This document shows positions 8,961-53,862 of a DNA stretch of 64,000 nucleotides, piece after piece (positions within the stretch are counted from its first letter, which is position 1; the number at the start of each line of letters is the position of its first letter). Both the position numbers and the translations under genes were made by a program. A model generated the notes under the pieces. That model was given only the letters and a program-made list of their open reading frames with translations, searched no databases and was not told the origin of the DNA. This DNA is from Canna indica (taxonomy: Eukaryota > Streptophyta > Magnoliopsida > Zingiberales > Cannaceae): contig CP136891.1 of assembly GCA_034359265.1 (NCBI GenBank), forward strand, positions 59,992,001 through 60,056,000, read 5' to 3'.

Positions 8961-8970
8961 AGAAGAAGAA

Positions 8971-14260: not shown

Positions 14261-14271
14261 AAATGAAGAAA

Positions 14272-14302
14272 GGGCTGTGCTGACAGCATGTCAGCACTGC
14301 CC
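14272..14302. repeat. 31-base hairpin
   Basis: GGGCTGTGCTGACA and TGTCAGCACTGCCC flank a GCA loop, giving a 14-bp stem with one mismatch. The same hairpin is at 16509-16539 and, with one more change, at 53907-53937. Confidence 0.85.
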
Positions 14303-14841
14303 TTTATTTGAAAAATAAAAAAAATACGAGAGAGAGAGAAAAAAAAAGGCAGCTGCCGCAGTGCTGCCGTACTGAATTAAAAAATAAAAGTAGCGGGCAA
14401 CGCTGAGAGCATTGGCCGCAGCCCTGTTTCCAAAGAAAAATAAAAATAAAAGAAAATTCATGAACAATGTCGTACAGGATCAAAATAATTTTATAAAATT
14501 AATAATACTAATGAAATTGATTCTATATTAATATATAAAATAAATAAAACATCATTACATTAAGATATGAAAATAAATAATAAATGAAAATTCTAACAAA
14601 TATTTATTTTTTTTATAGAAAGCTAATTCGGACATGACACAAATACAAAGACTCAAATGGTCAATAATTTATGTGCTTTTACTTTAGGTTAGATTGTTGA
14701 GTTTATCTCGAATTGAGCCGAGTTTGTGGGTTCAATCGAAATTCGACTCAGATGCGAATCAAATCAAATTAAGAGGCTAGGTGAGAGGAGGGTATTCTCG
14801 AAAAAAGGAAAAATGAGAGGAGGATTATAAATTAAGAGTGA

Positions 14842-15080
14842 GCAAAAACAATTGATTTTTCGATTAATCGAAAAATCGATCTGAAATCGAACTAATTTTT
14901 TCAATTTTAAGTTATGTTTTCGAATTCAGATTCAATACACGATTTAAAAAGTCCACCGATTTTGATTAACCGATCAATTCAATATATTTATTAATTTTTA
15001 AATATATATATAATGATTCATAAATTTTAAAAAAATTAAAAAATTAATCAAATGATTTATAAATTATAAAAAATTATATA
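14842..15080. mobile_element. hAT-type left-end relative
   Basis: GAGTGAGCAAAA followed by TCGATTAATCGA and AAAGTCCACCGATTTTGATT parallels the left end of the nested hAT element at 2503. Repeats of it are at 17080 and 54474. No right end is identified. Confidence 0.5.
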
Positions 15081-15510
15081 TATACACGTCGGTACTGCCC
15101 TTTATTTGAAAAATAAAAAAATGAGAGAGAGAGAGAGAGCGCGCGCCAGAGCCTGCTGCGACAGTGCTGCCCTACGCCCCTACTGAATTAAAAAATGAAA
15201 ATTGCGGGCAACACTGAGAGCACTGGACGCTGCCCTATTTTCAAAGAAAAAAGGAAAATAAAAGAAAATTTCTGAACAATGTCGTACAGGATATATCAAA
15301 ATAATTTTATAAAATTAATAATACTAATGAAATTAATTCTATATTAATATATAAAATAAATAATCATTACAGGTTAAGATATGAAAATAAATAATACTGG
15401 GAAATTCTAACAAATATTTTGTTTTTTTTATAAAGAGCTAATCTGGGCACATGCAAGCTAAGACGAGTCTTGACCTGACACAAATATAGAGACTCAATAA
15501 GTGGTTAATA

Positions 15511-15835
15511 CACTACAAGAAAATCACCAACGGACGAAATCCATCGGTAATATTATTACCGACAGACTCTCCATTGCTAAAATGCGTCGGTATTATCAAC
15601 GAATTTTTTCGTTTGTTGGTATTACCAACACATGTTTTTCCATTCCATCGGTATTACCAACGGAAGTATTTTCGTTGGTAATTATTTCGTTGGCGTTATC
15701 AACAGAATTATTTTTGTTAGTAATACCAACAGCAGTGTTGTCGTTCGTAATTCCGTTGGTAATACCAACGGATATATTTCTGTTGATAATACCAACAAAA
15801 TATATCCGTCGGTAATACATTTTATTGGCTAATAC
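15511..15835. mobile_element. CACTA transposon terminus with subterminal repeats (copy A)
   Basis: CACTACAAGAAAATCACC opens the terminus. It is followed by many inverted copies of CGTTGGTAATACCAACGG (about 15545-15830), the typical subterminal transposase-binding array of CACTA elements. ATA precedes the terminus as a possible 3-bp target copy. No opposite TTTTCTTGTAGTG end was found. Open frames across this block are by-products of the repeats. Confidence 0.8.
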
Positions 15836-16112
15836 CTAAATCAATCCTAAACACCTAAAACATATCACATTTACACGAAATCATAAAATAAAATTTGAAA
15901 CCACATATGAACCATTATATTTCTAAATTCACACACACAGAAATTAACCATAAACAACTTAAGGAAACTATTATATACATTAAGCATAGTCACAGCTCTA
16001 AAAGAGCAAGGATTTCATTTGCATTTTTTTTTAAAAAAAGTTAGTAGTGACTAAAACATTGTTAGTATGGTCAATCCATTCACACCACAATTCAAAACAC
16101 TTGTAGATGGGT

Positions 16113-17826
16113 ACAAAATTAATAACAAAACAAATAAAAAAATAAAAAAAATTAAATAAGGATATAAAATATATAATCAAAGAAAAAGCTAAAATAAAAT
16201 ATAATTTTAAAAAGTAAAAAAACAAAGAAAAAACAACCATTTAAAATAAATAAAATAAAATAAGAATTATATATATATGAACAAAAATACAGCAAAATAA
16301 TTCGAAAATCAAAGTAAGAAAACAAAAATGAAGAAAAGGCCGTGATGACAGCACCATATATATATATTAATACAACAAAATAATTCAAAAACCAAAGTAA
16401 GAAAACAAAAATGAAGAAAGGGCTATGATGACAACACCATATATATATATATATATAAATACAGCAAAATAATTCAAAAATCAAAGTAAGAAAACAAAAA
16501 TGAAGAAAGGGCTGTGCTGACAGCATGTCAGCACTGCCCTTTATTTGAAAAATAAAAAAAATACGAGAGAGAGAGAAAAAAAAAGGCAGCTGCCGCAGTG
16601 CTGCCGTACTGAATTAAAAAATAAAAATAGCGGGCAACACTGAGAGCACTGGCCGCTGCCCTGTTTCCAAAGAAAAATAAAAATAAAAGAAAATTCATGA
16701 ACAATGTCGTACAGGATCAAAATAATTTTATAAAATTAATAATACTAATGAAATTGATTCTATATTAATATATAAAATAAATAAAACATCATTACATTAA
16801 GATATGAAAATAAATAATAACTGAAAATTCTAACAAATATTTATTTTTTTTATAGAAAGCTAATTCGGACATGACACAAATACAAAGACTCAAATGGTCA
16901 GTAATTTAAGTGCTCTTACTTTAGGTTAGATTGTTGAGTTTATCTCGAATTGAGCCGAGTTTGTGGGTTCAATCAAAATTCGACTCAGGTGCGAATCAAA
17001 TTGAATTAAGAGGCTAGGTGTGAAGAGGGTATTCTCGAGAAAAGGAAAAATGAGAGAGGAGGATTATAAATTAAGAGTGAGCAAAAACAATTGATTTTTC
17101 GATTAATCGAAAAATCGATCTGAAATCGAACTGATTTTTTCAATTTTATGTTATGTTTTCGAATTCAGATTCAATACACGATTTAAAAAATCCAACGATT
17201 TTGATTAACCGACCAATTCAATATTATTTATTAATTTTTAAATATATATGTAATGATTCATAAATTTTTAAAAAATTAAAAAATTAATCAAATGATTTAT
17301 AAATTATAAAAAATTATATATATACACGTCGGCACTGCCCTTTATTTGAAAAATAAAAATATGAGAGAGAGAGAGAGCGCGCGCGCCCGAGCCAGCTGCC
17401 ACAGTGCTGCCCTACGCCCCTACTGAATTAAAAAATGAAAATTGGGGGCAACACTGAGAGCACTGGCCGCTGCCCTATTTTCAAAGAAAAAGGAAAATAT
17501 AAGAAAATTTCTGAACAATGTCGTACAGGATATATCAAAATAATTTTATAAAATTAATAATACTAATGAAATTAATTCTATATTAATATGTAAAATAAAT
17601 AATCATTACAGGTTAAGATATGAAAATAAATAATACTGGGAAATTCTAACAAATATTTTGTTTTTTTTATAAAGAGCTAATCTGGGCACATGCAAGCTAA
17701 GACGAGTCTCGACCTGACACAAATATAGAGACTCAATAAGTGGTTAATACACTACAAGAAAATCACCAACGGACGAAATCCATTGGTAATATTATTACCG
17801 ACAGACTCTCCATTGCTAAAATGCGT
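16113..17826 (+). repeat. Local tandem duplication in copy A, second unit
   Basis: This second unit carries three tandem copies of an 80-90 bp block (AAATACAGCAAAATAATTC to CACCATATATA, 16280-16520). It is cut short inside the CACTA terminus at 17826, where ATGCGTC joins TGCAATG. In copy B the two sides of that junction lie about 965 bp apart (55227 and 56188) and share GTC, so this is a deletion with 3-bp microhomology. Confidence 0.8.
17750..17826. mobile_element. Truncated CACTA terminus
   Basis: This is the same CACTACAAGAAAATCACC terminus as at 15511, cut after 77 bp by the deletion at 17826. It belongs to the second unit of the local tandem duplication. Confidence 0.8.
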
Positions 17827-18495
17827 CTGCAATGATTTAAAACACTTATTCCTTCAAATGCCTTGCTTGAATGCCTAGCCCCTGTTACCATATGGACTAT
17901 GCATGCTATACATAAAATAATCACTGAATTGAAACAGTGATAGAACTTTAACATTAGCTCACTGTGCATATGGACCATGCATGCTTTCACTCGCTTGCAA
18001 TGAACCATATCAAATTGAAAGCCTGCCTATGAAAAAGGATGAACCCACTGAGTCTGCCTAGCATACAATTCCTTCAATAACTTCCCAACCTATTCAAAAA
18101 AGGTTACCATGCTTCTCATTTCTGACTTGTTTTCAAAAGCACATATATAATTAACTAGAGCCTTCAAGGCACCATTATTAGTTCACCATTTTTGGTTTAT
18201 TAACCTTTACCTTAATATGTGCACATCAATACCACCACTGTAGATTATTTTAACATCTAGCTGACTGGAATTCATCAACAAAAGAAAGCTAGAAAAAGGA
18301 TGTTTAATGAGCTAGAAACTAAACATGATTATAGTATTATAGGATAAATGAGCTTGAAACTAAACATTAACCACATGAAATTATCTCGGGATAAATATAT
18401 AGTTCAAAAGCTATTATATGAGTACATGGAACTCTTTAAAATCAAACTATTTTTTGTAGCATTGTCAAAAACTAGATCCTATTATATATTCTTAA

Positions 18496-27000: not shown

Positions 27001-27524
27001 TTAGTAGTAATAATTTTGGAAACTTTATCCCCTTTTTTTTATAGAAAAGAATTCTTGAATGAATAAGTACATAAGATACTGCTCATAAATAGTGAATGGT
27101 AGATCATTAACTGTTGCATTTTTATTTTGCACATTATATGTTTTTATAATAGCTTTTTATTAGCTTTTTTAGCTTCTACTTTTTAAACTAGAGACTTCAA
27201 TTTCAGAATATGTCTATCATAAATCCATTTGATGCATGTGCTTGTAATTCCAGGATACAAGCCGAAACAGTTGATGGAAAAATAGTTCTGGCACATAATG
27301 GGGAACCCTATTCTTTTATTTTTGGTAAATCTGAGGTTAGTAAAAGCTCTATCTAGTATTTTGGTTTTGTTACCTTAACTTTAGACTGCAGTGTCTAGCT
27401 GCCTGAAATTTTAAGCATCAATTATCTTAATAACCATGTTTAGTTTCTAGCTCATTTAACATCCTTTTTCTAACTTTCTCTTGTTGCTGACTTCAAATCA
27501 GCTAGATGCTAAAATAATTTGCAG
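24082..27524. other. Anonymous intergenic DNA
   Basis: About 3.4 kb of AT-rich sequence. A possible exon-like stretch at 27256-27336 (between a CAG acceptor and GTTAGT) reads IQAETVDGKIVLAHNGEPY; I do not recognise it. Open frames at 24101-24313 and 24515-24800 show no family features. Confidence 0.5.
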
Positions 27525-27890
27525 ATTTGGACATATTACCACAAGGTGCTGCCAAGGGTCAAGCTCTTGCTTAATTGCTCAAAAAGTTCAAGGCAGTGGA
27601 AAACCTCCAACTAACACTTGTTTGTGGTGATTTTGGGAATGATTCAGCATTCCAGATGTTCACGGTGTCATGGTTAGTTTCTAAAAGAGATTTTTAAATG
27701 ATTACTCTACTTTTTGTGGTAATATTCTTAATAAACATCCATAACAAATTTGTATTCTCAACCTTTTGATCAATTATTTAAAACTTAAGTCTTTAGAGAA
27801 GACATAATCCATTAACTTGTATCCCTAACACCTTTCAGGTCAGCAATGCCCAGGAGGAGTTGCTGCAATGACATGCTCAAAATGCAAAAG
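27525..27890 (+). pseudogene. SPP: Sucrose-phosphate phosphatase pseudogene fragment
   Basis: Two exons of the HAD-type sucrose-6-phosphate phosphatase are visible. The first, 27525-27672 after a CAG acceptor, reads DLDILPQGAAKGQALA, a TAA, LLKKFKA, LVCGDFGND, and after a frameshift IPDVHGVM, ending at GTTAGT. The second starts at 27839 after TTTCAG and reads VSNAQEELLQ, a TGA in place of Trp, then HAQNAK. In the intact enzyme this region supplies the Lys and Asp motifs (KGQALAYLL and GDSGND) of phosphate release in sucrose synthesis. Two stops, a frameshift and a Ser-to-Phe change in GDSGND make it non-functional. The retained intron shows it came from genomic DNA. No other exons were found. 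Confidence 0.85.
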
Positions 27891-31250: not shown

Positions 31251-32564
31251 CGCAAGTATACCACTGTAACTGATCTTATACAAAAGTGTCTCTCCTAAAA
31301 AATGAGTATGAACAAGCAAACATGCAAAACAATGACTTTTTATGTAGAGAAAGAGACCAAAATAATGGAAGTAGATGTTTCAAATACTAGATCGGATGTC
31401 ATTACAATACATTTGTATCAATATCATAGGATAACTAGAAACAAGTCAGACAAAAAGTCTTGACATCTAATCATCATAATAAAAGTCTAACAACAACGAA
31501 AGACTAGATACATAGTCATTTAGGAAATATCATACATTTGAATCCAATCTAAGCAGGGATATAGTTCAGATCAAAACTCAGATATCAGTAAAGTTTTGGT
31601 CATCTGCAAATACGAGAAAACACAATTAAGTGACGGTATTCAAATCATCCATGATACAAATATATCTGAACATATATATATAACTAAGGCAAGTGGAATT
31701 AGAAGAGTGTACACAACTAAAAACTAAAATAACCAGTCCCTGAAATTGAGACATGACTAGAAAAACTTTTTTTTCCCACAAAATACAAGCAATATAACAA
31801 AACTGTGATTTTATAAAGCCAGGAGCATTCTATAGCAGAAATCCACGCAGAGATATAATTAAAGATTTTAAACAATTAGTTAACTAGGTCTGAATACCAA
31901 ATCATCCCTGTTTTTCCTGAAGAGGTAAATTGTAGTGTCACCATTGCCACGATAGCGGTATACTTTAGATTGATAAACCTGGACTTTTCTAGAAATTGTG
32001 TCTTCAGCCTCAAATGTGACTTGATACAAACTAAATCCACATGCGTTGGCTTAAATAACCTTCATATATTGCAAGTTTGTATCATTCTGTATAATTACAA
32101 AAGAGCATTTACCTAAAACCATAACATGGATAGGGGTGGCAATTGGAATCGGTTAACCGATCCGCAAAATCTAGTTTTGGGTAGGCAATTTGAGGTCCGA
32201 TTTCGATTTTGTTTAGTAAAATTCAAGAACCATTTTAAACCAGATCAGTTTCGGTTATCGGGTCATGGATAACTGGTTATAAAATTTCGGTTTCGGTTAC
32301 CGATTATCCGCGGTTCACCGGTAGCTGAAACCTCGGCAAGTCATTTTGAAGATTGTAATAGAGTCTCATTGAGACAATTCCATCTCGTCCTCGAACTGAT
32401 TGACTGCGCAATTCGTAGAAATCGCAGAGCTCGAAGAGACGATTCCATCTTTCAATGAAGGTAACTCTCATTGCTTATTCATCATTTCCTCTTTCTTAAA
32501 AGGAATCATCTCCTTGTAGTTTTTCCCTTTTTCTTCTATAGAAAAGGAGATAGGTTTCTATAGA

Positions 32565-32779
32565 TCTGCAAATGTTGCAAACTTCTCTAAGCCACCTGAA
32601 AAGCTTTCTTATCCTCAGCAAGTTGGTATGCAACCTTCTGATGATTCCTAATGAATGTTTTTTGTTTGGACTCCTACTCTACAATTTCTGGTTGAGGTAC
32701 AAGATTTGTCTTTTTTGGATCTGTAGTTGTTGCTTGCACTGGGGTCATCTGGTCTCGTTATAGTACAGTTATAAAACCT
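32565..32779 (+). pseudogene. MPC: Captured fragment of a mitochondrial pyruvate carrier gene
   Basis: Two exons flank a 101-bp GT-AG intron (32626-32726). The first reads SANVANFSKPPEKLSYPQQV. The second reads VACTGVIWSRYSTVIKP and ends at a GTAAGT donor (32780). These are signature stretches of plant MPC proteins, which form the pyruvate importer of the mitochondrial inner membrane. Only the central part is present: the FWAPTFKW segment before and the NWNLFSVN segment after are not seen. The intact intron shows capture from genomic DNA, not from mRNA. No start codon in frame belongs to it. Confidence 0.85.
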
Positions 32780-33507
32780 GTAAGTTCTTCTCTTATGCTT
32801 TGTTAAATTTCTTAATTGCCACAATCTGTAATGCACATTTATACTCGTGTAAGCTAAAACCTATAGTTAAGTAGCCTGACAAATAGCACACCTAGATGCA
32901 TTGTCAACACATGAAACGAGGGCAGAAATGAGTGTTTGGTGTAGTCTGTAGTTATGGTTGCTCATTCACTATCATATGATTGTTTTTTATGGTAACATTT
33001 GCAGCATGAGAAATGATCTCTCAAAATATTGATATCCTTGTTAAGCAGATTCATGATATCATGGCAAAGATGTGAATTCCTATTTACTATGAATTGCTAT
33101 TTTAGACTATTTATCAATCTTTAGGATTTAACAGCTTTACTCTTGTAAAACTGAAGCATCAAGTGCATTTTTGGCACACTTTGTACATTTAAAATGTTAA
33201 ATAGAAGATGCTATAATCCATTTCAAGTTGTACTGAATAAAACTATGAGCTAGTTGTGTAATTTCTTGCTGCATCCATTGTCAAACCTTTGTAGGATAAT
33301 GTTCATTGACACTAATATCACCAGTTAATCCACTGTTTGCTTTATAATCTCAAAACTACCATTTCATAACAATATATGAAGAAAATCTCGTGTTGCTATT
33401 GTTATCATTATCCTTTATCTCTGTTGCTGTAATTAATCCTACAATTAAAACTAAAACTTCCTTCATCCTACATTAATTCAGGGACGATTATTAATCCTAC
33501 AATTGAA

Positions 33508-34431
33508 ACTGATCTTAAGAAGTACATCAGAAGCTTTTGTTCGAACCATGAGAGAATACTACCCAAAACTGTCAAGGTAAGAACACCATGAGATTTTTCG
33601 TACTTGTTATGTTCTTACTCTGGAAGTCTTTCTCTTCTTGATTATTGTCTTGCTAGAGTGAATAAGAACATAATGTTGGTTATTCAAGACTGAAGCAGTA
33701 GTTTACTTAATGAAGTACCGTAACAATTCCACAAACAAATTTGTTTGGATACTCAAGTTTCTGCATTAAGATGGTCACTGCTGATATTCTTTAGTTTTTC
33801 TTAATATATTTATGCAATATCTATTATTCAACCGGCAATTATATGAATTGTTCCGCTGAGATACTCGGGGGTAAGCGATTCTTCATCCAAAGTGATCCTT
33901 TTCTTTTCTTTCCACTTTAAATGTGTTGTTTACCTATTAGATTACTGATGCAGGCTACTTGGAAATCCAAACGAAGACATTGGCTTGGAGTAGGCAAATT
34001 ATCCAATTGGCATGAGTATCCTCAGTGGAAACCAAAGAGTCTGGCATCAGCTGTTCTTGGTCTTGATGCCGATGGTTTAGATCTGCTCTCAGTGAGTAGA
34101 GATAATAGTTATCCGTCATTTGGCAATTTAACTTATTATTTCTTATACAACTTCTGTAAAATAAAGGGGTCAAATTTGAGCACACAAGTAAACTTATTAA
34201 GTGATATCATACTGACCATATATCCAAATGTATTGAGCTAAATTTGATACTAATTAGCATGAATTAGTTTGTGTTAGAATATATTCTAGTATTGGTTTCT
34301 TTGGAGCATTTTTTAATCTTTTACTTTTATGCTTGCAGAAGATGTTGCAGTACGAGCCATCAAAACGAATTTCAGCTAAGAAAGCTATGAACCACCCTTA
34401 TTTCAATGATGTAAACAAGGCCCTTTATTGA
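33508..34431 (+). pseudogene. CDKB2: Captured fragment of a B2-type cyclin-dependent kinase gene
   Basis: Three exons in order. To 33576 before GTAAGA: ETDLKKYIRSF and ILPKTVK. About 33954-34091 before GTGAGT: LLGNPNEDI, then after a 1-nt shift GVGKLSNWHEYPQWKPKSLA and LDADGLDLLS. 34339-34431 after [36 protein letters not shown] and TGA. CDKB2 drives G2/M entry. The fragment lacks the ATP-binding lobe and the exons with HRD and DFG-equivalent catalytic motifs, so it is not a kinase. NHE and FNDVNK wording is closer to the monocot type, from memory. Confidence 0.88.
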
Positions 34432-36330
34432 GTTGTCAATTTGTTGTTTTGTATTATCTTTTGAAGTTTTCATGTTCAACAACTTGCTATTTACTGGTGG
34501 TATATTTTCAACTCATGTAATTCAATTTGCATCAACATATCCAGTAGATTGATTTTTGAAACTATTGTTGTAGTATATGTTGATGAACTTTGAATATTCC
34601 AATTTTTTTAATCGATTATCCATTTACCAAACTGGTTAACTGGTTTGTAAACGGATAACCGGTTCTATTCGAACCGAATTAATTGAAATGTTTCGGTTAT
34701 CCGCGGATAACCAAAACCAAGCCGGTTTCAGTTTCGGATACAAGATTTTGAAACCGAACGGTCTCGATTTCGATTAGCGGGTGTTTAGTTCGGTTTCGGT
34801 TAACCACAAAAAATACAGTTAACCAAACTGTTGTCATCCCTAAACATGGACCTAGGAAATTCCTGGATCCATCTAGAAATTCCCAAATCCATAATTTTTT
34901 ATTCAAAAATTCCTAGACCAACTATTATATTATGGTATAAAATTTCAAAGGCAAAAAATAGCTACTAGACCTTTTGATTATGAAATTTGAGAACATTTTT
35001 GATGGCCTTCTCACAATCCCTGCAGAAGTATGATCCAAAATCGATGGCAAAGCAAGCCAAAAAAATACTTACATGGGAGATAATAGGTCTGGATGTCAAA
35101 ACCTTGAGGAAGGAGAAAGGGGCAAATTAATAACAATTAACGAAGTAGCGTGAAAAAATTAAGCAAAGGAAGTTCCTAAAGGATACCAGCTTAGTAACAT
35201 CACTTGAAAGTTCAATTCAAACTTCTTCCCAATTGTACAACCTAATGAAAATTTAATTAAAATTCAAAAATAATATTCATAAATATAAACAAATGAAATC
35301 AAATAAAAAAATTTGATAGATATCACAAACCTTTGGATACCATATTTGGACATCACAAACCTTATCAGGTGACGTAGGTCCTCTATATATATCCTAGATT
35401 TTTTGCATAAAAAATATTAGTCATTTTTTATATTTTATTTTCATACTATTTTAAACAATTGTATTTACCTTTCTCAGCATTGAAAATAGATTACAAAATT
35501 CCAAGACTCCCACAACTGGTCCTTCATCAGTTACAACTTTCATAATATCCTGATCTTTTATCTTATCATCTTTAAATTGTGGTTGAGATGCAAAAACCCT
35601 ATCTCCTGGTGGCAACTAACATGAAAGCATATAAAAAAATTATAAGATTAATTTAAATTAAATTGATTATCATTAACTATTTTATCTATATATTATTTGT
35701 TTTTACCTTTTTCCACTTTTCTAATTTCTTTCCTACATACTGACAAAGATCCGTTGTACATAACCCATCCGTGGAAAGAGACTTCTGAATTTTGTTGAAT
35801 GAACTTTGTTCATACTGTCTCTTGGAATTCGCAACAACATTGTTAATTAAATATTGTCCAGACAACGATAATAGTTTCTTAACGTCACCCACCGACATAT
35901 TATGTCATGCTTCAACGATCGCAGCAACGGCAAGAACCCAATGCACATCTAAACAAAAATAAATATATTAATGAACATCCACAAATATTATAAATATTTC
36001 AATCTAAGTTTCTTATACTTATTGTCATTAGTTTTATAATTAATTTCATGGAGTTTAAATATCACAATATTTTCAAAATAGGGTTAGAATTTGTTGAAAA
36101 GAAAAGAAAACAAATGAAAACAAAAGAAATCAATGAGAAAATTGATGATACTTTATCGAAAAAAACTTGGCTATATATTCATAACAAACTAAGCTAAAAT
36201 TAAGTTGCCAAGCTAAGGTAAAATTAAGTTACTCGAGTCCTTCTAATGACGTAAAAGACTAAATCAAACAAACAAGAATTCCTTAACAATATTGATTTAT
36301 TGACTAGGTACAAAACAAAGGTAATCTTTG

Positions 36331-40696: not shown

Positions 40697-41056
40697 TGAT
40701 CCTTGTTTTGTGCCTTGCAATAAGCATAAGTTCGAGGCCGAGATGGAGGCTCCACGATGCTAGAAGTTTGCTGAATTGAAGAGTGCTGGGTGCTGGAAAG
40801 ATTTAGTAGATCACTAGAGAAAGAGGGAGAGAAAGGGAGGGAGGAAGAGACACTATTTGAATATCAGTCATGCATGTCTTTCTTTTTCTCATTTTTCCTT
40901 ATATAGATTACACGATGTATTGTAATCATAGCATATTTAATGGCAATAAGGTATTCCTTATTTCTTATAATAACTTACATAGATATTTAAGTAACATATA
41001 AAGTACCTAAGTGCTGAAATTGTATCTCAGTTATAATGAGATTACTCCAATCAACA
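40697..41056 (-). mobile_element. Gypsy 5' LTR spanning the left edge of copy B
   Basis: On the minus strand this would run from TGTTGATTGG (41056) to ...CA (about 40697), eight bases before the primer site. It contains CTATATAAGG, a TATA box, near 40905. The part right of 40881 matches copy A at 1-176. The ends are inferred from TG...CA and the primer site; no second LTR is in the window. Confidence 0.6.
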
Positions 41057-41879
41057 TCAACGCGTATAGGATCAACCTACAAATCATTAAATGAAAAATA
41101 ATAATCAACATATGAATATTTGTAAAAGGCTCAATAACAATTAAAAAAATAATAGAGGACTTAGTTACTAATGATCGGCATACATTCTTTCCTTTAGCTT
41201 TAGCTCCCTAAAAATTATGAAAAAAAAAGTTATTGTCATGCCTTTGATCAAAAGCTAACAAGGGAATGGCTATCATAAAGTTGAGAGGAAAGTTACATTA
41301 AAAAAAAGTAAATAAGGTACCTTCTTGCTGCTTTGTGCATCGTGAAATTTGTTCTTGCGCGGACCCATCAAATCCTGGTGCAAGCCAGGTTCAATCAAAA
41401 ATCTCTGCAAACAAGAGGAGATGGCTTTGTAATGAGAGGAGAATTCATTGAAACAACTAAAATTTGTTTGCCCCAAGAAAAAGAAAAGAAGAGCTCCTAC
41501 CCCTACAAATGCCACAAAACACTACAAAAAAATGACCTTTATGCCTCGATGTCACAAAGGAAATGACCTTTATGCCTCAATGCCACAAAAGAAATAACCT
41601 TTATGCCACAACGTCCCAAACTTCCAGTATTCCACCAAAAATCAAAAACTTCAAAAACAAGTTTGTCTTTTTAGCTTCTAAACTGTCAGTGTAACATAAA
41701 TAAAACAAAGAAAAAACCACGAGTCGGCAGGATTCCTTTTACTGGTATCACAATCAAATAATGTTTTCTTTTTCTTAATGGTCTTAAGGTTCTTTATTTT
41801 TGTTCGTTTTACTTTATTTATTTGTTATTTCATTGAATTTTGTTGGACTTTGAGTGCTATTTGTCATTTGGACAGTTTC

Positions 41880-42104
41880 ATGGCTGAAAAGGAAACACCG
41901 AATGCACCTACTGATGATGGATTTTCTGAATATCAATCTGCAACTAAGAGGCCAAACGTAACTTCAAATGTCTGGCAGCATTTTGAACGCATTTTGGTTG
42001 AGGATAAAGATGTGATAAAAGCCAAATGTAACTATTGTCATACAGTATTTGTTGCTGCATCAAAAACTGGTACTTCTCATTTGAAGCGTCATATATATAG
42101 ATAA
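41880..42104 (+). pseudogene. hAT transposase, N-terminal BED zinc finger fragment (copy B)
   Basis: This is the counterpart of 1000-1224 with the same BED finger ligands (CNYC, HLKRH) and the same TATA insertion ending the frame. Differences from copy A are a few substitutions (KRPN for KRPK, ERIL for ERNL). Confidence 0.8.
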
Positions 42105-43189
42105 GTGCCCTAAATGCAGTGGCGGATCAGGGCAACCTCATATATAAATATATTTTCAAAACTTAAAGTTCAAGCTAATTTTGATAGCCGACCTCGACGA
42201 GTTTTCATGTTTATGCTTTTTAGAAAATGATGCATGAACAACAATCTAACCTCCTAACAAAATTAGACGATTATTAATATACTATCCTACTTGCTAAAAA
42301 AATTATCAATAAGAAAAAAATTATGTCATTATGGTTAGATTAAAATGTGCAAAACTAGAAATCAAAATATAATTGACCAGTTATGTTGGTTTACTCAAGC
42401 TATTAGCACAGAAGAATAGAAATAAATCATGTTGAAAAACATCAAAATTTATGTTTTCGGTTTCGATTACAAGCTAGATACAAACCATTAATTGTATTGC
42501 AACAAAAGGAGTATAAAACTTCAGTACATGTTTAATCACACAACAAAGGACAAGCAAGCTTCCCCCAAGCATTTTAGTTGAAGCAACAAGCACATATATT
42601 TATTTGAAAAGAAGGTGGGAGAAAAAACTGAAGACGGTAAAAAGAAAATTGAAGGCATGAAATATGAACAGATATATGCTTGCTTGTGCATCTAGCAAAG
42701 CACATGTGATCTGATATTCTGATCGTTGCCTGTGCTGTGTATGGTGGTGGAGTTGCTTGCTTGTGCATTTAGCAAAACACATATTTTTATCAGGAACTAA
42801 GTAAATCACATGTCCAATCCATAAGAGAAACAAGAGTCTTTTGTATTTGATTATTCATGTGTTTGGCAAGCAAATGATAGATATTTGATGATACAAATCC
42901 CATATCAATTTGTCATAACACATTTATTAGAATAGGAAATATTTGCACTCTAATTCCATCTTAAATACAATCTATCATTATAAGTTAGATCGATCTAATC
43001 AAGTTAAACTGATAAAGGCATGGGTGCATCAAAAGTTTAGAAAGCTCAAAAGATAATATGAATCTAATCAAAACATAGGCAAACTAGAATATATTGCACA
43101 ACTAAAAATTCTTGTATTGTATATCACAATTGAAATAAAGAAAAAACATGTTATTTCTTTCTCACAATTGAAATAAAGAAAAAACATTT

Positions 43190-43334
43190 TTTTAGGGAAT
43201 AAGAGTCCGTTGGAATTGTATTTAGAAGAACCACCTCATGATTTGAATGAAGATTTGGATGTTTTAGAGTACTGGCATAGAAGCTCAGTGAGATTTACAG
43301 AACTTTCAAGAATGGCAAGTGACATTTCATTTTG
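43190..43334 (+). pseudogene. hAT transposase C-terminal part 1 (copy B)
   Basis: NKSPLELYLEEPP, VLEYWHRSS and LSRMASD are present. The Trp codon missing from copy A is kept here, but about 47 net bases upstream are lost and replaced by a short repeat of AATTGAAATAAAGAAAAAAC (43130 and 43166). The nested element follows at 43335. Confidence 0.8.
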
Positions 43335-43762
43335 TAGGGGGTGAGCAAAAAAAAAATGGATTTTCGGTTAATCGGAAAACGGTCCAAAACCGAGCCGGTT
43401 CTTTCGGTTTCATTTTTTATTTTTCAAAAAAATTGGGTTTTGGTTTCGGGTTCGGTCCGAGTTGTAAAAAGTCCACCGATTTCGATTAACCAACCGGTTT
43501 AATATTTTTTAATATATATAATATAATTTATTAAATAATATATTAGGGTTTCTACTTTCTAATTACAATACAACCTGTAGCAAGTAAAATCCTCTTCTCT
43601 AAGCAAATAATTTCTTGTGTGTTTTATTCCTCTGTTTTATCCCCAAAAATCCTCATCACCACAAATAAGCATGACTTCGCCCCTATCTCGTGACCCACAA
43701 ACAGGGACCTCAGCTGGTTCTCTCAAGGGATGTCATTTTTTATGAAATGTCTGCGTGGAGAT

Positions 43763-45497
43763 AGGAAGATAATGAAATTCAGATTACTGTTGAACCTGGT
43801 GGAGTCGCGATAATCCCTCCAGTTGGTGCCCCTCTAGCGACCAATCAAACATAAGGAGAAACTTCAAGGGCCAATTCTTCAAGTGAGTATTCTAACTCTG
43901 GTTCTCCCCAAAGGTATCGCTCTTTATCTGATGTTTATGCCTCAAGTAAGTTTGTTTTATTTGCTAGAGAAACACAGAATTTTGAGGAAGCTGCAAAAGA
44001 AGAAGTTTGGAGAAAAGGAATGAGGAAATCAAAAACATCAAGAAAAATCAGACATGGGAATTAGTCGATCTACCAGAAGGGAAAGATGCAATTGGACTGA
44101 AATGGATCTTCAAGACCAAGTATAATGAAGATGGCAGTATTCAAAAGTATAAGGCCAGAGTGGTCGCAAAAGGCTACTCACAACAACCCAGGGTTGATTT
44201 TAATGAGACTTTCTCTCTGGTAGTTCGAATGGAGATGATAAGAATTGTTCTTGCTTTAGCAGCCCAATTCGAAACGAAGGTGTTCCAGCTCGATGTCAAG
44301 TCAGCGTTCCAAAATGGAGAGTTAGAAGAAAAGGTGTACGTATACCAACCTGAAGGCTATGTCGTGAAGGTAAAGGAAGACAAAGTTTGTCGGCTCCGGA
44401 AGGCTCTCTACACTTTGGTCTAACTCGATCTTGGAATAGCAAGATTGGCTCAAATTTCCAACACTTTGGTCTTCAACGAAGCCAAAGAACATATTTAAAG
44501 ATGGTTGAAGATTTTAACTCAAGCCAGGAATAGTAAGATTGACTCATATTTCCAACACTTTGGTCTTCAACGAAGCCAAAGAACAAATTTAAAGATGGTT
44601 GAAGATTTCAAAAAGGCCATGATGAAAGAATTCGAGATGACTGATCTAGGCATCATGAAGTACTTTCTCGGTTTTCAAGTCAAGCAATCAAGAGGTGAGA
44701 TCTTTATTTTGCTAGAGAAATATATTGAGGACCTGATAAAGAAGTTTCAGATGTCAACATCAAAATCGATGCCTGCACCAATGGCAATTAACGAGAAGCT
44801 ACAGCAAGATGATGGTGCAGAGATGGTCGATGAGAAGATTTATCGAAGCTTGGTGGGATCTCTAATTTATCTCACTAATACAAGGCCTGATATTGTGCAG
44901 CTTGTAAGTGTTGTTTCAAGATTCAAGAGCAAGCCCAGCAAGATTCATTATGCTGCAGCAAAGAGAATTCTTAGGTACTTGTAGGGAACAAAACAATCGG
45001 GGCTCAAATATACCGAAGAAGGAAACAACAAGCTGGTCGGGTTCACAGATAGTGATTGGGCAAGTTCTATGGATGATAGAAGAAGCACTTCAGGACATCT
45101 TTTTTGCCTGGGTTCGAAGATAATTTCCTGGAGCTCTAGGAAGCAAAATACTGTTGCATTATCTTCTGCGGAAGCATAATATGCAGCAGCTACAAGTGCA
45201 GCTTGTGAAGTTGTTTGGCTTCGGCAAATTTTGTCTGATATGCAGCAGAATGAAGAAGATCTGACTGTCATTTTCTATGACAACATGTCAACGATAACCA
45301 TGACGAAAAATCTTGTTTTCCATGCTAGAAGAAAGCATATTGAGCTCTGCCATAACTTTATTCGAGACTTGGTGAACAAAAGAGAGATTTGCTTGAAGTT
45401 CATTGGGTACAACGAGCAGCCAGCAGATGTTCTTACCAAACCAATATCTAAGGAGAAACTTGAGAAGTTCAAAGGCTTAATGAAAATCACAAATTAA
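43763..45497 (+). pseudogene. Copia pol remnant: RT and RNase H (copy B)
   Basis: This is the counterpart of 2930-4664 with the same loss of gag, protease, integrase and the YVDD segment and the same 86-bp tandem duplication. An additional stop (TAG after RILRYL, 44983) truncates the second frame. The final RNase H frame is 45231-45497. Confidence 0.9.
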
Positions 45498-45504
45498 GAG
45501 GGGG

Positions 45505-45842
45505 TGTTAAAAGTTAATTTGTAATTTCCATTAGAGTACTTTCTAGAAAGTTTGACTAAGTTTAAGGTCTCTTAGTTATTGAAATTGTGATAGTCTTAAT
45601 GAGTCTTTGGAATTATGTCATACTTAATGAGTCTTTGGAATTATGTTAGTCTTAATTAGTCTTTGGAATTGTGGTCTTTGGAATTGTGTTTGAACCTTAA
45701 TTATGAGTCTAGAATTATCATGTGAAGTAGTATAAATAGACAAGAGTTCTGTCATTATAATCAACCAAAAAAAGGAAGTAAAACCCTCTTCTGTGAGCAA
45801 ATAATTTCTTGTGTGTTTTATTCCTCTATTTTATCCCCAACA
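45505..45842 (+). mobile_element. Copia 3' LTR (copy B)
   Basis: This 338-bp LTR starts TGTTAAAAG after AAGAGGGGG and ends CCCCAACA, the same length as in copy A with scattered substitutions. Confidence 0.85.
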
Positions 45843-46449
45843 AGCCTCGTCACCACAAATAAGCATGACTTCGACCCTATCTCATGACCCACAAATAGCA
45901 CAGCTGAGGTCCTCGGTGCTTTCTTCTAGATTCAATGTCAAGTCTTCAGTTATCTCATCTGAGTGGCTCAACAAGTTAGCAAAAGATTTCTGAGCACATG
46001 CCACTAGTCTTGCGGTTATGGAGATGAACATATTATAATTGGAACAATAAAAGGTCCTATGTTTATGCTAATTAGTTTATTGTGTGCTAACTTTCATTAG
46101 TTGTATGCTAATTAGTTTATTGTGTGCTAACTTTCATTAGTTGTATGCTAATTAGTTTGTCGTATGCAAAGTTTAAAAGTAGGATTTTGTTGTTAAGTTA
46201 ACCCATGAAGATATAGTGCACACCCGACTTGTTCTAATTCCTAGCTAATTGAATTATAGTAGTAGCTAATTGAGTTTGGGTAAATTTTGCATATACATGA
46301 CTTGTTCTAATTCCTAAGCAACTGATATAACTAATATGTTTTATGTTATATCAGGACAGAGTAGAATAAATAGTATTACACATGATTTTTCTTGAACTAA
46401 TAAGTATACTTTTGGTACTAGCATTCTCATAATCTCATTTTTATCATTA

Positions 46450-46481
46450 CTAGAAAAGATCCCGCGCTACGCAGCGGCATC
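46450..46481 (-). mobile_element. Helitron-like 3' terminus (copy B)
   Basis: CTAG at 46450-46453, a spacer, and a stem GATCCCGC with GCGGCATC (one mismatch from a G-to-C change) correspond to 5587-5618 in copy A. Confidence 0.55.
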
Positions 46482-46682
46482 CAAATAATCTTATAAAATA
46501 TTTTTAAATTAATAATAATGATGATGAAATTGATTCTATATTATCAGATAAAATAAATAAAACATAATTATATATTAATATATGAAAATAATATCATTTG
46601 TTAATAGAGTTAAATATAAATATCAATCTTACGGTAGCAAACTTAAATTCAATCATAATAGTATGTTTTTAATATTCTAGAT

Positions 46683-47181
46683 TAGAGCCGGCAAAATATG
46701 GCCCGACCCAATAGCCCGAAAAAATATCGGGTTCGGGACGGTTCTTATCGTGCTCGGGCCGTTATCGGGCTGGCCAGATAAGGCTCGAAAAATTATTGGG
46801 CCAGACTGGGCTAGGCGGTGTAGGCCCGGCTCGGCCCAATAGCCCAATAAGGATTTGGGTATTATCGGGCTATTGGGCTCGAAACGACCCGATAGCTCGA
46901 TATGGGCCCGATAACCCAATTATATTGGCACGATTTCAGTCTGATAGTACGATTTTTGCACGATTTTGGTACGATAAACCGTTTGGGCCTGAAATTTCAT
47001 TTTTCATCTTTGTGTTTTCGGGCTAACGGGCCGTGCCGGCCCGACACGCTATTTTTTCATGCCGGCCTGGCACGCTATTTTTTCGTGCCGGACCGGGCCA
47101 ACAACTTCGGGCCTGAATCGCTATCGGGCCGACCTAAAAAAAATTCGGGCCGGCCCCGCCCGGCATGATTTGCCAGGCCTA
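46683..47181. mobile_element. hAT MITE with 8-bp target duplication (copy B)
   Basis: This is the same element as 5820-6283, 499 bp long, flanked by TTCTAGAT at 46675-46682 and 47182-47189. It is longer because of extra interior repeat units around 47045-47075 and 47105-47135. Confidence 0.9.
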
Positions 47182-50180
47182 TTCTAGATAGAAAACTAAT
47201 TAAAATATAATAAAGGTGGATACAATTTTAAAAAATAAAATACAACACTAAAACAAAATCAAAAGAAAAATATTAATAAGTGAAATAACGAATTGATAGT
47301 TAAAAAATCATAGCTCGCAAAATTACAATTTCAAAAATGAAAAAAATAACTACACTTTCTAATAAAGTACAAACATTATAAAATAATTTTTAATCAAAAC
47401 ATATATGAAATCAATTATATAGTAAAAGACGTAATGAATAAAGTATAGTTAAATATTATAATATAAATATATGGTCATGTATTAATAGAAGTAAAAATAA
47501 AGATGAGTTTTACAATGGTCTAATTTAAAATCAACAATAATAGTAAACTTTAATATACCTAATTAAAATTATTGGATATTTAATAAATGTATATAATTTT
47601 TAATAAAAATACAACAATAAACACACATTTATAAAAACAATAATAGCATTAAACATAAACACTCAAAATAATGTATTTGATAAATTAAAAAGGAACATAA
47701 TTTTAGTGAATTACAATTCTTATAAAGGTTTAAAAAAATAAAAATATAAGAAAAATAGACTTAACAAAATGATTAAGAGGTCTCACTTATCACGTACCAC
47801 TTGATTATATCAGTAATCTCATTATGATATCTAAAATGGAAGTAAAGGTAAAAGCTCAAACTAAATAATTTAATAAAAACTTAAAAATCAAATTTAATGA
47901 ACAAATAATATTTTCTTCACTTAAAAAATAAAGAAATAACAAAAATATAAATTTTAAAAAGTAATAATATAGAAAATATAAAATATATAACAAAAATAAA
48001 ATAAAGATTTAAAATATATAATTATACTTAATTTATTTTAGAGTTTTGAAATAATTTTAGAAAATATGAATCATCAAACTAAATAATAAATTCTGCTAAA
48101 AATTTTTAAAATCTGAATGAAATTAACTAATTAAGGACAATAAGACTAAATGCCTATGTATTTTTAAATAGTAAAATAAAAATAAAAATAAATATTATAT
48201 TAATCAAAATTTTGATTACATTTACTAAAAAATGTTCTTATTTCTCATATACCATTTTTCATATACTAATTGATTAGCATATCATTTATTTTACTACAAC
48301 ATCCATTAGCTATATATATTAGGTATTTATAGTTTTTTGCTTCAAATTTTTAAGCCTCTCAAAAATCTGAAAGCTTAAACTAATTTAAAAATCAGTCAAA
48401 GAACCTGACAATGAAATCAAGTTAATAATAAATAATATTTTCTTAGTAAATAATATATAACAAAATAAAATATAAAATAATGATAGTAATAATAAATAAT
48501 ATAAGATATACAGTATATAAGAAGAAAAATAAAAGAATAATTTTAAAAATATATAAGTATGTATATTAGACTATTTTAATATTTGAATTTTAGAAAAAAT
48601 AATAATCCAAACTAAAAAAATTTACTCAAAAATTATAAAACTTGAATTGAATTAAGGAAAATAAAAGTAAAAGATTAGATCTTTAATCAACTATAACAAT
48701 CAATAAGAATAACAGAAATAATTAATATAATAAATAAATATTGTATATAATATATATTCAATATATAATTATATAATAAAATATATTATTAATATATATT
48801 TATTTCAATCAAATTTGCCAAGAAAATATGAAATATAAACCAAATCAAAAATTTTAACGAAGAGAATCAAAAAATCATATAATGCCATATGAGATAAGCT
48901 CAATTTTTTGGACTTAAGAATATCAATGCTTCTACTTATTGAATATATAATTTGATATTCTTTTTATTTGAATAGATATTCAAATTTTAGAGATATTTGA
49001 AATTACATCTTTTTATTCGAGTTTGAGATTTTAAAAAAAATTGAATTAATTTAAAATTTTAAATCAATTTGAGTAAAATTTATTTAATTTTTATGAATTG
49101 ATTGAAATATATTAGTTTCCATGTATTATATAGGTACATATTACATAAAACTAATTTATTCAAGACTAAGTTATATTAATTCGAGATTTTAAATTTTTAT
49201 TATAGAATGCAAACTTTATAACTAAAAAATTTAATGAAAATTTATTAATCACACTAAGTTGAAGGGAAAAATTAAAATTTAAGTAAATAATATAATAAAA
49301 AATATATTGATTTGATTTGAAGTATCATTTTTTAAAAAAAATACATATATGGACTTGATTAAAAAAACAAATTTAGAAAAGATAATAATAAATATACTAA
49401 AAGATAATATGAACTAATACTAATAAAATTTAAAAAATAAATTAAAAAAAGGGAAAGGAAATTAAATTAAATTAAATTATAGATAGTATTATAAATTTTC
49501 AACTATAAAGTAAAAAAAAGGAAAAAATGATATATAATATATAATAGGAAAATATGTATATTTATAAAATATATTTTATATAAAGAAAAATGTATATTAA
49601 AAGATGTAGAAATTTTGGAAGGATAAAATTATGTAATTATTTTTACTGACAATAGTTTGGAAAATTTTGAATCAATTTAAATTTTTGATTACATTCAAAT
49701 CAAATCTAATTAAAATTGAGATTTAAATAACCTTTGGTATTTTGAAATTCAAAATTTTGAACTTTTTAATGCAATAGGTAGAATTGAATAAAAATTTGAA
49801 TAAATTAATTAAATTATAAAAGTTCATATTTTAATAGGTTTTAAATAAAATATAATAATATTATTAAATATCTATTAAAAATAATATAATTTAATACTAC
49901 CAAAATAAAATAAAATTTGAAATCTTAATTTTGATATATAAAATATAATAAAAATCAAAAATATAAAAAAGTAAAATATTTTTAAAATCATAATTTTGAT
50001 ATATAAAATATAATAAAAATCAAAAAGTAAAAAAAGTAAAACATTTTTTTAAAAAAATATCCTCCTTTCTTAAAGAATATAAAAAAATAAAGACAGAATA
50101 AAAAATATATAAAATTAAAAAAGCAAAATAATTTCAATAAGAAAAACAAATAAAATAATTAATATATAAAAAGTAAAAGT
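47182..50180. other. Very AT-rich DNA without genes (copy B)
   Basis: This is the counterpart of 6284-8960 plus about 330 bp at 47499-47847 that copy A lacks. No gene is seen. Confidence 0.7.
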
Positions 50181-50189
50181 AGAAGAAGA

Positions 50190-50305
50190 AAGGGCAGCCA
50201 ATGCTGCCCTTCGTTTATAAACTGCAGCGTTGAGAGCGCTGGTTTACTTTTTTTTTAATAAAAAAGAAAAAAGAAAAAATGGGCAGCGCTACTCAGCGCT
50301 GCCCT
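50190..50305. repeat. GC-rich palindromes in AT-rich DNA (copy B)
   Basis: GGGCAGCGCT and AGCGCTGCCC form the same stem as at 9059-9082. Upstream, GGGCAGCCAATGCTGCCC is now closer to a perfect palindrome than in copy A. Confidence 0.85.
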
Positions 50306-50904
50306 TTTCTTATAAAAAAAAAAGAAAACAATGAAAATAAAAACGTGGAATGTGAAGAGAGCTATGGTTTTGATAAATAAGATACAAACTGAAATGTGAG
50401 TTTAACTATCATTTCACAGCTTATACAACTAAATATTTCTCTTATATTTGTTTCATGTGATATCCAATAGTACTAGTAAAAGTGGGTTAACTAGAACCAA
50501 GAGGAAGTGTCTCTATCCCCATTGTGGATTTACTTTCTCGCACTTGAAAAAAATAATAGAGGATATGTAAAGTTGACCAAATAGGTGATAGATATGTAAA
50601 ATGACCTGAAATAGGAGGTGTTATTGCTTTCACTAAATATTGGATTAATTATCTAGGTTTACTTGTCAATTATCACGATGTTTATCTCTTTTTTGGATTC
50701 AAGTAAAGAGAGGAATAGGAATTAGGAAGAGAAGAATAGAGAACTTAGAAATTGGTAGGTAGGTTAAAAAAATTTATTAGTTGATCAAAAATTATCGGTT
50801 AACCGAATCGAAAAAAATAAAATCGAAATGATGATTAATCGAAGTTAATGAATCGATTAATAAAATTACCAATGGAAGGATTAACTAGTCTATGCTCACC
50901 CCTA

Positions 50905-51062
50905 ATATTTTGAGTATTCATGTAATTAGTGTTGCTTCAAAATATGCATTTAGCATGGGTGGAAAAACTATATCAATTACTAGAAATTCTCTTAAGGCAA
51001 AAACAGTCCAAGTTCTAATTTGTTTTCAAGATTGGATTCGAGAAGAAGAAGGTAATTATTAA
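50905..51062 (+). pseudogene. hAT transposase C-terminal part 2 (copy B)
   Basis: The dimerisation domain resumes with SIHVISVASKYAFSMGG, then LKAKTVQVLICFQDW, ending at TAA (51060-51062). It continues the frame interrupted at 43334. Confidence 0.85.
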
Positions 51063-52009
51063 ATCTTGATAAATTATTTGATTTATGCGACTATTTTTTT
51101 CTAATTTATGTTTTTTAATCTTGAAATAAAAGTTGGTTCGATGGCTTTTAGGATATGATAGATTTAAAGATGCTGATCGGATAGCTCGAGTGAGGAGAAT
51201 GACTGATAAAAATGATGATGAAGTTGAAATTGGATTTTATTATTTTTTTCCAATTTATTGATGGCAATTTGATATATTTATTTTGTTTTGTTTTTTTATG
51301 TGAAGAAAAATAGAAATAGAATACAGTAGTTGTTCACTTTGGATTCTTATATATACAAATTTGAAATAGTAATATATACTGAATAATTGTTGAATTAATT
51401 TAGTATAATTAAACATATTATATGATGATAATATTTTCGGACTTGTAATGTTTTATAGTACAGTTTATATATTTGTTTTATTTTAAATTTATTGAAATGT
51501 TGATGTTATAGTAAAATATATAATGGACGTGAATAAATAAAATATTAAATACAAGGAAGGAAAAAAAATGGCTAAAAAACGTGGGTTGGATTGGGCCGGG
51601 CTCGGGTTTTGCTTAAATTTCATGGGACGGACCTAGTTTGGCCAGTGTTTTTTAAAATTCAAGCTCAGACTTCATCTTATAAAATTGGGCCCGCATTGGC
51701 CCGACCGGCCCGCATTGAGCCTGGCCTGACCCGGCCCACCAGGTCTACTAACAACCAAGCAAGCACTTAAGTTGTCCTGTAAGAAGTAAATATCACAAGT
51801 TTTATCAACGAGGTAAAACTCTAAATACTATCTTGATATATAAATGGATAACACTACAAGGATCCACTTTACATATTATATTAATACTACTACTACGTAC
51901 AACACTAAAACATTAAGAAAAGCAAAACTAAGAGAAGCATAAGCACAATCAAAGAGATGGAGCTCTACCTGGGATGACTTCGATCAAGTGGTCTCTAAAT
52001 CTGAACTAT

Positions 52010-53108
52010 AAGCAGTGGGGAGGGGAATGACGAGTGCGGTGGCTTGTGGGTAGGGTTTAACAGTGGAGATGGAGAGTCGGCGAATTAGATTCCGGCGAGG
52101 TATGTGTAGAAGCAGTTGTAGTTATCCAAATGAGATCTATGACCGATACTTCTAGGATTGGGTGTTGACCTTCTTTCTTTTTTGATAACCTCAGCCTAGA
52201 AGAGAAGGAAGTTTGTTTAGTGAATAGGAGAGACCAAGCCGTAGGGTAAGCAACAAGCTTTGAGGACGAAGGTTCAGTTCAGTGCTCATCAGCCAAGTGA
52301 CCTTCATGACCTTTCCCTGCTCTCTAAAACCGCCGCAATTCCAATCTCTAGGAACATCGTAGAAAGAGAAATGCATTGAGTATTCTTTCTGATCGAGTTT
52401 AAGATACGGCTCCCGCCTGCTCTTCCTTTTAGCCAGTTTTAGGTGTTGAAAGTGCTTCCAAAAATATGCTTCACACAACCCGCCCTTCTCATGCTCGCAC
52501 TCAAATCAGCTTCTATCTGCAGGATCTCCACTTTCTACTCGACTCTTGACAGAGGCCTCATGCTTCTCCTTTATCGTGGTAACAGTTCGCAGAGGCGACA
52601 CATCCATTCCTTCATTTTGGTTGGTCAGGACTGCTTCAAGAGATGTCTATGCACCGCTATCTTAAAAGACAGGAGAAGGTATTCGCTCCACTATACAACC
52701 ATGTCCTCACTGAAAGGAAGCTACCAATCGTACGCCAAGCCCAATGAATGATATAATTGATGAAGTCGTGAAGACAAGGACGGAGTTGAATGGGCTATAG
52801 TGATCAGAAAAAGACATGGCAACTGTGAACTTTCCTGCCGTATTTGAACCTTTCAATCCTTATTTTTGTTTCTCCTATTCTTTTAGCAAGGTGAAGCCTC
52901 GGGGAGGAGTCATGTAGGTCGGCAGCATCCCTGTGTTTTCTGCATACCTTGCTTATGGAAAGGTAGCCTACCCTATACAAACAAGAGAGTATCGACCGGC
53001 AGACGAGAAGGCAAAGTCAAAGGAAAGTGGTGCTTCAGCTACAAGAAAGTCTGTCGAACCTTTATTTGGTCAATGCAATCATGAAATATTTTCAGTCCAG
53101 AAAGAAAG
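52010..53108. other. Remnant of the gene fragment and organelle-like segment (copy B)
   Basis: At 52010-52100 is the last part of the unknown gene fragment. It joins directly to the organelle-like segment (52101-53108), which ends abruptly at GAAAGTA against AT-rich DNA. Both joins lie inside copy A's longer version, with 2-3 bp of shared bases at each. Confidence 0.6.
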
Positions 53109-53489
53109 TAAGTTGAACCAGATAAAAAAGGAATTCAATAAATTAATCAAATTATAAAGTCAAATTCTAATAGCTAAATAAGTAAAATATAATAATAATG
53201 TTATATATTTATTTTTTTTTAAAAAATGAATACTACCAAATTTTAGAATAATGTGAAATTTGGAATCAAAATTTTATAGAAAATAAAATAAAAATATGTA
53301 AAAATAAAAACAAATACAATTTAAAAACAAAACAAAATAAAGAAAAAATAAAAAAATAATTAAAAAAAATATAAGAAAAATTAAAATTAAAATTAAAATT
53401 AAAAAAACTAAAATGAACTATTTTTAAAACAAAGATTTTTTTTTGTAAAAAATGAAATAATAATTAAAGTCTATTAAAAAGAAGAAGAA

Positions 53490-53820
53490 AAACAAAATTA
53501 ATAACAAAACAAATAAAAAAATAAAAAAATTAAATAAGGATATAAAATATATAATAAAAGAAAAAGCTAAAATAAAATATAATTTTAAAAAGTGAAAAAA
53601 ACAAAGAAAAAACAACCACTTAAAATAAATAAAATAAAATAAGAATTATATATATATGAAAAAAAAATACAGCAAAATAATTCGAAAATCAAAGTAAGAA
53701 AACAAAAATGAAGAAAAGGCCGTGATGACAGCACCATATATATATATATATAAATACAGGAAAATAATTAAAAAACCAAAGTAAGAAAACAAAAATGAAG
53801 AAAGGATTGTGATGACAACA

Positions 53821-53862
<42 letters not shown>

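Follow-up and report, generated by a model that had tools for sequence, protein, structure and literature searches.

We analysed a 64-kb stretch of the Canna indica genome (G000:C2:59992001-60056000, from a genome of 753 Mb in nine contigs; hereafter the window) and found that its positions 32131-34842 form a 2712-bp element with hAT-type ends and an exact target-site duplication (TSD). The cargo of the element consists of fragments of three genes: an eIF2-beta-type gene (C2, 0.97 Mb), an MPC gene (C8), and a CDKB2 gene (C7). The element recurs in a tandem array on C2 and at dispersed places. We consider it probable that this is a non-autonomous hAT-type element of the gene-carrying (Pack-type) kind, which captured its cargo during the repair of a break and was mobilised in trans, and that the cargo is close to neutral. 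A preliminary description of the same DNA had placed matched ends and a perfect 8-bp target copy at 32131-34842, and had described an MPC fragment with its intron and a CDKB2 fragment with introns, on one strand, as parts of two unrelated genes. The ends, the coordinates, the duplication (AACATGGA on both sides), both fragments, and their common strand (all +) proved correct. The MPC and CDKB2 donors stood as well; the count of two did not, because a third, eIF2-beta-type donor accounts for 32392-32566.

The features of the element are given below. Array copies are those of the tandem array on C2, eight of which, the window's own included, were read with 1.5-kb flanks.

32123..32130 (no strand): left TSD AACATGGA; identical in 8/8 flank-read array copies and in the copy at C2:65.27 Mb
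32131..32332 (+): hAT 5' end, with the terminal inverted repeat TAGGGGTGGCAA and a CGGTT/GGTTA-rich subterminal region; common to dispersed copies and ends-only elements
32392..32566 (+): fragment of the putative eIF2-beta-type gene, 5' side; 88.6% to C2:968974-969145
32567..33492 (+): MPC fragment, with the end of exon 2, exon 3, introns, and the start of exon 5; donor C8:14455504-14456602
33493..33501 (+): scar of the MPC-CDKB2 joint; together with adjacent bases, a second copy of ~20 nt from MPC intron 4
33502..33871 (+): CDKB2 fragment, with part of exon 2 (ETDLKKYIRSF..TVK) and the next intron; donor C7:56928022-56928388(-)
33873..34434 (+): CDKB2 fragment, with the last two exons (encoding LLGNPNE..DLLS and KMLQYEP..NKALY-stop) and their intron; donor C7:56926895-56927400(-)
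34435..34842 (+): hAT 3' part, leading to the subterminal region and terminal inverted repeat (TTGTCATCCCTA); from the end and TSD scan
34843..34850 (no strand): right TSD AACATGGA; identical in 7/8 flank-read array copies, AACGTGGA in one

The terminal inverted repeats (TIRs) of hAT elements have the consensus YARNG, and the short TIRs of this element, TAGGGGTGGCAA (5') and TAGGGATGACAA (3'), are of that type (TAGGG..) and match at 10/12 bases. The exact 8-bp duplication AACATGGA bounds them at 32123-32130 and 34843-34850. We scanned the window for pairs of YARNG-type ends with a match of at least 10/12 bases, an exact 8-bp duplication, and a spacing of 300-6000 bp; the end pair of the element was the sole match. 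Three pairs in total were obtained from 300 first-order Markov re-samplings of the window, or ~0.01 per window. The 12-base end pattern alone is common, with 3 matches in the window (1 mismatch allowed) against a shuffle mean of 0.86, and 7 of 100 shuffles reached 3 matches. With two mismatches, 16 matches were found in the window against a shuffle mean of 12.7, which is the chance level. Of the motif CGGTT there are 5 copies each in the first 230 bp and the last 250 bp and none in the middle 2232 bp; other motifs counted are spread less evenly. Exact 8-bp duplications, as expected of hAT elements, are present in the window, in the copy at C2:65.27 Mb, in three independent cargo insertions, and in three ends-only elements.

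No transposase was found in a six-frame Pfam scan of the element, in which the matches were to MPC (17.7 bits, cut-off 27) and to kinase (13.3 bits, cut-off 31.7), both below the cut-off. An initial single-frame scan of 114 residues for MPC gave no Pfam match. Protein alignments of the interior led to MPC and CDKB2. The element is thus non-autonomous and, as in Pack-TYPE elements (Pack-hAT), holds host gene DNA from elsewhere between its TIRs.

The three donors were located by a genome search and by alignment to the fetched loci; for MPC and CDKB2, this alignment to the parental genes had been proposed in the preliminary description. Positions 32392-32566 match C2:968974-969145 at 88.6%, and an IF2B/IF5 Pfam domain, which matches eIF2-beta chains of the PDB, lies ~3.6 kb downstream on the same strand. 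The match and the domain probably belong to one eIF2-beta-type gene, and the captured piece would then comprise a leader exon, its GT splice site, and the following intron. For 32567-33492, the match is to the MPC gene on C8 (88-90%); it begins within exon 2 and ends just inside exon 5. Exon sequence stands at 32567-32625 and 32727-32779, and the few bases that belong to exon 5 stand at 33482-33492. The MPC part is without 205 bp of the donor, including exon 4 (bases 4129-4333 of the MPC donor locus, L009). The CDKB2 exon pieces lie at 33502-33576, 33954-34091, and 34339-34431. The identity to the CDKB2 gene on C7 is 91% for 33502-33871 and 83% for 33873-34434, the latter being lowered by 58 bases inserted in the intron. 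Between the two CDKB2 pieces, 621 bp of the donor with the catalytic core are gone. One alignment (P0101) had suggested kinase-core remnants in 33583-33953, which we dropped because the donor shows the 621-bp loss there. The C7 gene encodes the Canna indica protein P0088 exon by exon, with mismatches at exon edges only. All MPC and CDKB2 exon pieces are on the + strand and have GT/AG splice sites where the donors have them. No segment of 34435-34590, in the 3' part, was assigned a donor.

Both the MPC and the CDKB2 parts retain donor introns. Capture through RNA, that is, of reverse-transcribed transcripts, found no support and is contradicted by these introns; because of them, we regard this route as ruled out, its probability being negligible. 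The claim of the preliminary description that a hAT-type element captured its cargo at the DNA level is thereby supported.

The chimeric joints were confined to element copies among all candidates scored (the joint searches skip very common words and are not a full census). Of 26/26 candidates scored for the eIF2-beta/MPC joint, those that spanned it were 17 array places and the copies at C2:65.27 Mb, C3, C4, and C6; the C8 donor, the C2 donor (0.97 Mb), and an MPC-side match on C6 (0.75 Mb) had one side only. The C7 copy (L013, ~1460-6666) has both sides as two rows, with ~5 kb of other DNA inserted exactly at this joint. The MPC/CDKB2 joint (22/22 candidates scored) was spanned by 18 array places and the C2:65.27 Mb copy, and both donors and a CDKB2 piece at C8:23.87 Mb showed one side. 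The CDKB2 internal joint (24/24 candidates scored) was spanned by 18 array places and by the copies at C2:65.27 Mb, C7, C3, and C4, and the donor gave two separate matches. The donors are thus separate loci, each of which matches just its own side of every joint, and MPC and CDKB2 were not found side by side outside such ends, in accord with the preliminary description. The same results bear on the alternative that a chimeric pseudogene existed beforehand and was taken up whole by flanking ends. The joints that the copies share are what one ready-made chimera would yield, yet no joint outside the elements was present among the scored candidates. The ancestral locus could have been lost, which softens this objection; we consider this origin improbable all the same.

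Other copies with the same ends, which the preliminary description had proposed to look for, do exist. A 20-base degenerate pattern of the 5' end gave 335 matches in the genome (array copies included) and 0 for the reversed control, and the last 252 bp as a query gave 1252 candidate places, 40 of which were scored. The cargo-bearing copies on C3, C4, and C6 are each bounded by an exact 8-bp duplication of their own (GATATATC, ATTACACT, and TATAGGTA, respectively), and they have the same order of cargo and the eIF2-beta/MPC joint. Because each has its own duplication, we conclude that the cargo moved with the ends by transposition, as in Pack-TYPE elements. Exact 8-bp duplications also bound three ends-only elements (539, 486, and 533 bp). 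Seven further 3'-end loci showed neither a 5' partner end nor a duplication in the fetched stretch.

Some loci that match the 3' part of the element (L017, L018, L024, L025, and L027) hold different CDKB2 pieces, either portions of intron 1 and exon 2 or the final intron and exon, and some of them extend further into CDKB2 exon 2 than does the element at 32131-34842. CDKB2 was accordingly captured earlier, or repeatedly, in the family of the element. The fetched stretches of L017, L018, L025, and L027 showed no 5' partner end. L019 has the 3' part of the element and no CDKB2 match of at least 40 bases.

On C2, from 59.93 to 60.73 Mb, we count 19 places that hold the whole or a part of the element, each in + orientation, when the rows at 60.235 and 60.243 Mb are treated as one interrupted copy. 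Their element starts are spaced 16 to 70 kb apart. The flanks of the seven other flank-read copies match those of the window at ~95-99% in the aligned parts (82% for a short piece of L002). Because the eight copies share both flanks and TSD, we attribute the ~19 places to tandem duplication of a large segment and not to transposition. Within the window, 1-18495 aligns piecewise, with gaps, to 40881-56854 at ~93-98%, the copies being 40.9 kb apart, and the stretches neighbouring the window keep the order of the duplicated segment. A related stretch, about 89-93% like the array unit, lies at C2:65.26-65.28 Mb. The copy there (C2:65.27 Mb) has the same TSD as the window's, flanks at ~92%, and MPC exon 4; it and the window element are one and the same insertion. 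Because it shares the duplication and flanks and keeps exon 4, we take it as the older form.

Kimura two-parameter distances were calculated from 923 ungapped columns for nine of 14 aligned sequences. The distances were 0.060-0.082 between the donor and the elements, 0.040-0.053 among dispersed copies, 0.076-0.093 between C2 copies and dispersed copies, and 0.016-0.021 among array copies (three compared). The unrooted tree places the joined donor sequence between the C2 lineage and the dispersed lineage. This is the position that an early split would give, and two captures would give it too; we favour a single capture because the joints are shared among the copies. One capture would thus have produced the eIF2-beta/MPC/CDKB2 chimera. 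The lineage now on C3, C4, C6, and C7 would then have lost, at a shared ACT that was read in the C4 copy, the stretch from the MPC intron to the CDKB2 exon. The other lineage would be that on C2, where one insertion was multiplied through tandem duplication of the large segment.

The MPC-CDKB2 joint points to how the capture may have taken place. After entering MPC exon 5, the sequence takes up ~20 nt of MPC intron 4 again and then continues in CDKB2 at a shared ACT. The first copy of the repeated piece, with one base different, is at ~33432-33451. The scar, ATTAATCCTACAATTGAAAC, was read in two copies: in the C2:65.27 Mb copy, the second copy of this MPC intron 4 piece is exactly at the joint, and in the window element the upstream copy has one base changed. 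The other joints have 0-3 shared bases by eye. Because the scar repeats MPC intron 4 at the joint, it suggests template switching in break repair: a break in or next to the element would have been repaired by a copying strand that changed templates at 0-3 bp of shared sequence. That a single repair event copied serially from the genes on C2, C8, and C7, doubling back once in MPC before CDKB2, is a tentative reading to which we give somewhat less than an even chance. If true, the element would preserve a legible trace of template switching as a route of hAT elements to unlinked genes. The moving enzyme would be a hAT transposase supplied in trans from elsewhere in the genome.

A different route to such elements is published for Pack-CACTA and Pack-TYPE elements and has been proposed for all DNA superfamilies, including hAT (PMC8903248). 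In it, two related elements flank host DNA and lose their facing ends, and the outer ends mobilise the interior. Repeated rounds could stack several donors. Here, however, the donor loci (8.0, 7.0, and 4.5 kb fetched) show gene matches only and no element ends, the captured pieces start and stop within exons and introns, and a piece is repeated at the MPC-CDKB2 joint. Earlier insertions at the donors might since have disappeared, which softens the case; nevertheless, we consider neighbouring insertions an unlikely source of this cargo.

Substitutions from the donor were compared between exons and introns as raw counts with approximate exon limits. For the second CDKB2 piece, the counts (exon and intron, respectively) were 18/234 and 17/270 in the window element, 17/235 and 20/271 in the C2:65.27 Mb copy, 17/211 and 18/270 in the C4 copy, and 4/96 and 5/105 in the C6 copy. 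For MPC, they were 4/111 and 29/508, 12/185 and 51/904, 7/107 and 5/153, and 7/107 and 12/153, in the same order. Exons and introns thus appear to diverge at broadly similar, uneven rates. The frames of MPC and CDKB2 had seemed continuous by eye, and a fusion protein was considered; it was rejected, as the spliced model has a frame break between the two parts. The model has no in-frame ATG upstream of MPC, and the longest ATG frame of the unspliced element is 106 aa. Because of the missing transposase, the similar exon and intron divergence, and the broken spliced frame, the element looks like passenger DNA, and judging from these comparisons its cargo is most likely close to neutral and does nothing for the host. 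The preliminary description had suggested that a chimeric transcript or siRNAs could affect pyruvate import or the cell cycle; the sequence shows few signs of a function. A chimeric transcript or small RNAs acting on MPC, CDKB2, or eIF2-beta might be thought of, as the similarity to the donors (83-91%) might let small RNAs match and the 19 tandem places raise the dosage. Against such a function stand the near-neutral divergence, the loss of the catalytic core and of MPC exon 4, and the frames just described, and we hold it to be very unlikely.

Several observations weigh against a Pack-type hAT element with near-neutral cargo acquired in break repair. The C7 cargo-bearing copy, with its ~5-kb insert, has no matching duplication (5/8 bases alike by eye). 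Ac-type hAT elements prefer nTnnnnAn targets, and AACATGGA does not fit this pattern. No autonomous partner came to light; a three-frame Pfam scan over the 7 kb upstream of a single 3'-end locus had no matches. Capture in break repair is suggested by one clear scar, which an earlier local duplication in the MPC intron could mimic. The first CDKB2 exon piece diverges more than its intron, both here (10/75 against 21/292) and in the C2:65.27 Mb copy (9/75 against 16/304). In the second CDKB2 piece of the window element, the third codon positions are the most changed (10/79 against 4/78 and 4/77), an excess that would also arise from constraint acting on the branch of the donor itself. Finally, in the spliced model, the CDKB2 pieces by themselves stay open as a single frame that lacks an upstream ATG; this also favours functional cargo.

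Gene capture by hAT elements has been reported before. The preliminary description had called it much less described for hAT elements with clean ends and two donors than for MULEs, Helitrons, and CACTA; reports exist for maize Ds, grapevine Hatvine-6, and Pack-hATs. A 2011 paper called it rare and gave maize examples (PMC3260210). In PMC3260210, gene fragments were reported in 2 Ds2 and 9 Ds-l4 elements. Ds2-22 and Ds-l4-354 (Ac/Ds, hAT) are, like the Canna element, non-autonomous, with intron-bearing gene fragments copied from a donor on another chromosome. The part of that paper considered names one donor per element, whereas the Canna element has three in one, occupies five sites, of which four show exact duplications, and has a repeated piece at one joint. 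Pack-hATs, surveyed in maize and rice in 2022 (PMC8903248), share with it TIRs, 8-bp duplications, captured coding DNA, and clustered copies; in Canna, the donors and joints were traced base by base, and amplification also took place in a tandem array. In grapevine Hatvine-6 (PMC2528002, 2008), hAT ends are likewise shared, interiors differ, and genic exons and introns lie inside, but its members share transposase coding sequence, which was not seen in the Canna element. A Canna indica assembly with nine chromosomes is published (PMC9371203), and the word hAT is absent from the main text of that paper. No prior report of this Canna family was found in the literature searched. The Canna element is therefore a clear new example of known hAT gene capture and not a new kind of element.

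There is as yet no settled account of how unlinked pieces of genes enter cut-and-paste elements, and the Canna family bears on this question. A 2026 review (PMC13317346) describes capture by neighbouring insertions and, in the part considered, allows an undiscovered route for unlinked fragments. Because three donors are located and the family has independent insertions and a scarred joint, models of capture can be compared base by base in Canna. Apart from its readable joints, the element is an ordinary passenger.

The array, at C2 ~59.92-60.74 Mb, repeats a large, transposon-rich unit in tandem, with the 19 element-bearing places over ~0.8 Mb. A broken polyprotein, copia-like by eye and with a 94-bp tandem repeat, is present in both segment copies of the window (3588-3775 and 44421-44608). 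Both copies of the duplicated segment also contain TAGGGGTGAGCA (9671-9682 and 50893-50904, both -), which is two bases off the searched end and possibly represents another hAT-type family, although matches with two mismatches are at the chance level. A fragment of the sucrose-phosphate phosphatase (S6PP) domain at ~27491-27652 (+) scored 37 bits (cut-off 20.3); it is a lone exon-like piece of the array unit and perhaps another captured or decayed gene fragment.

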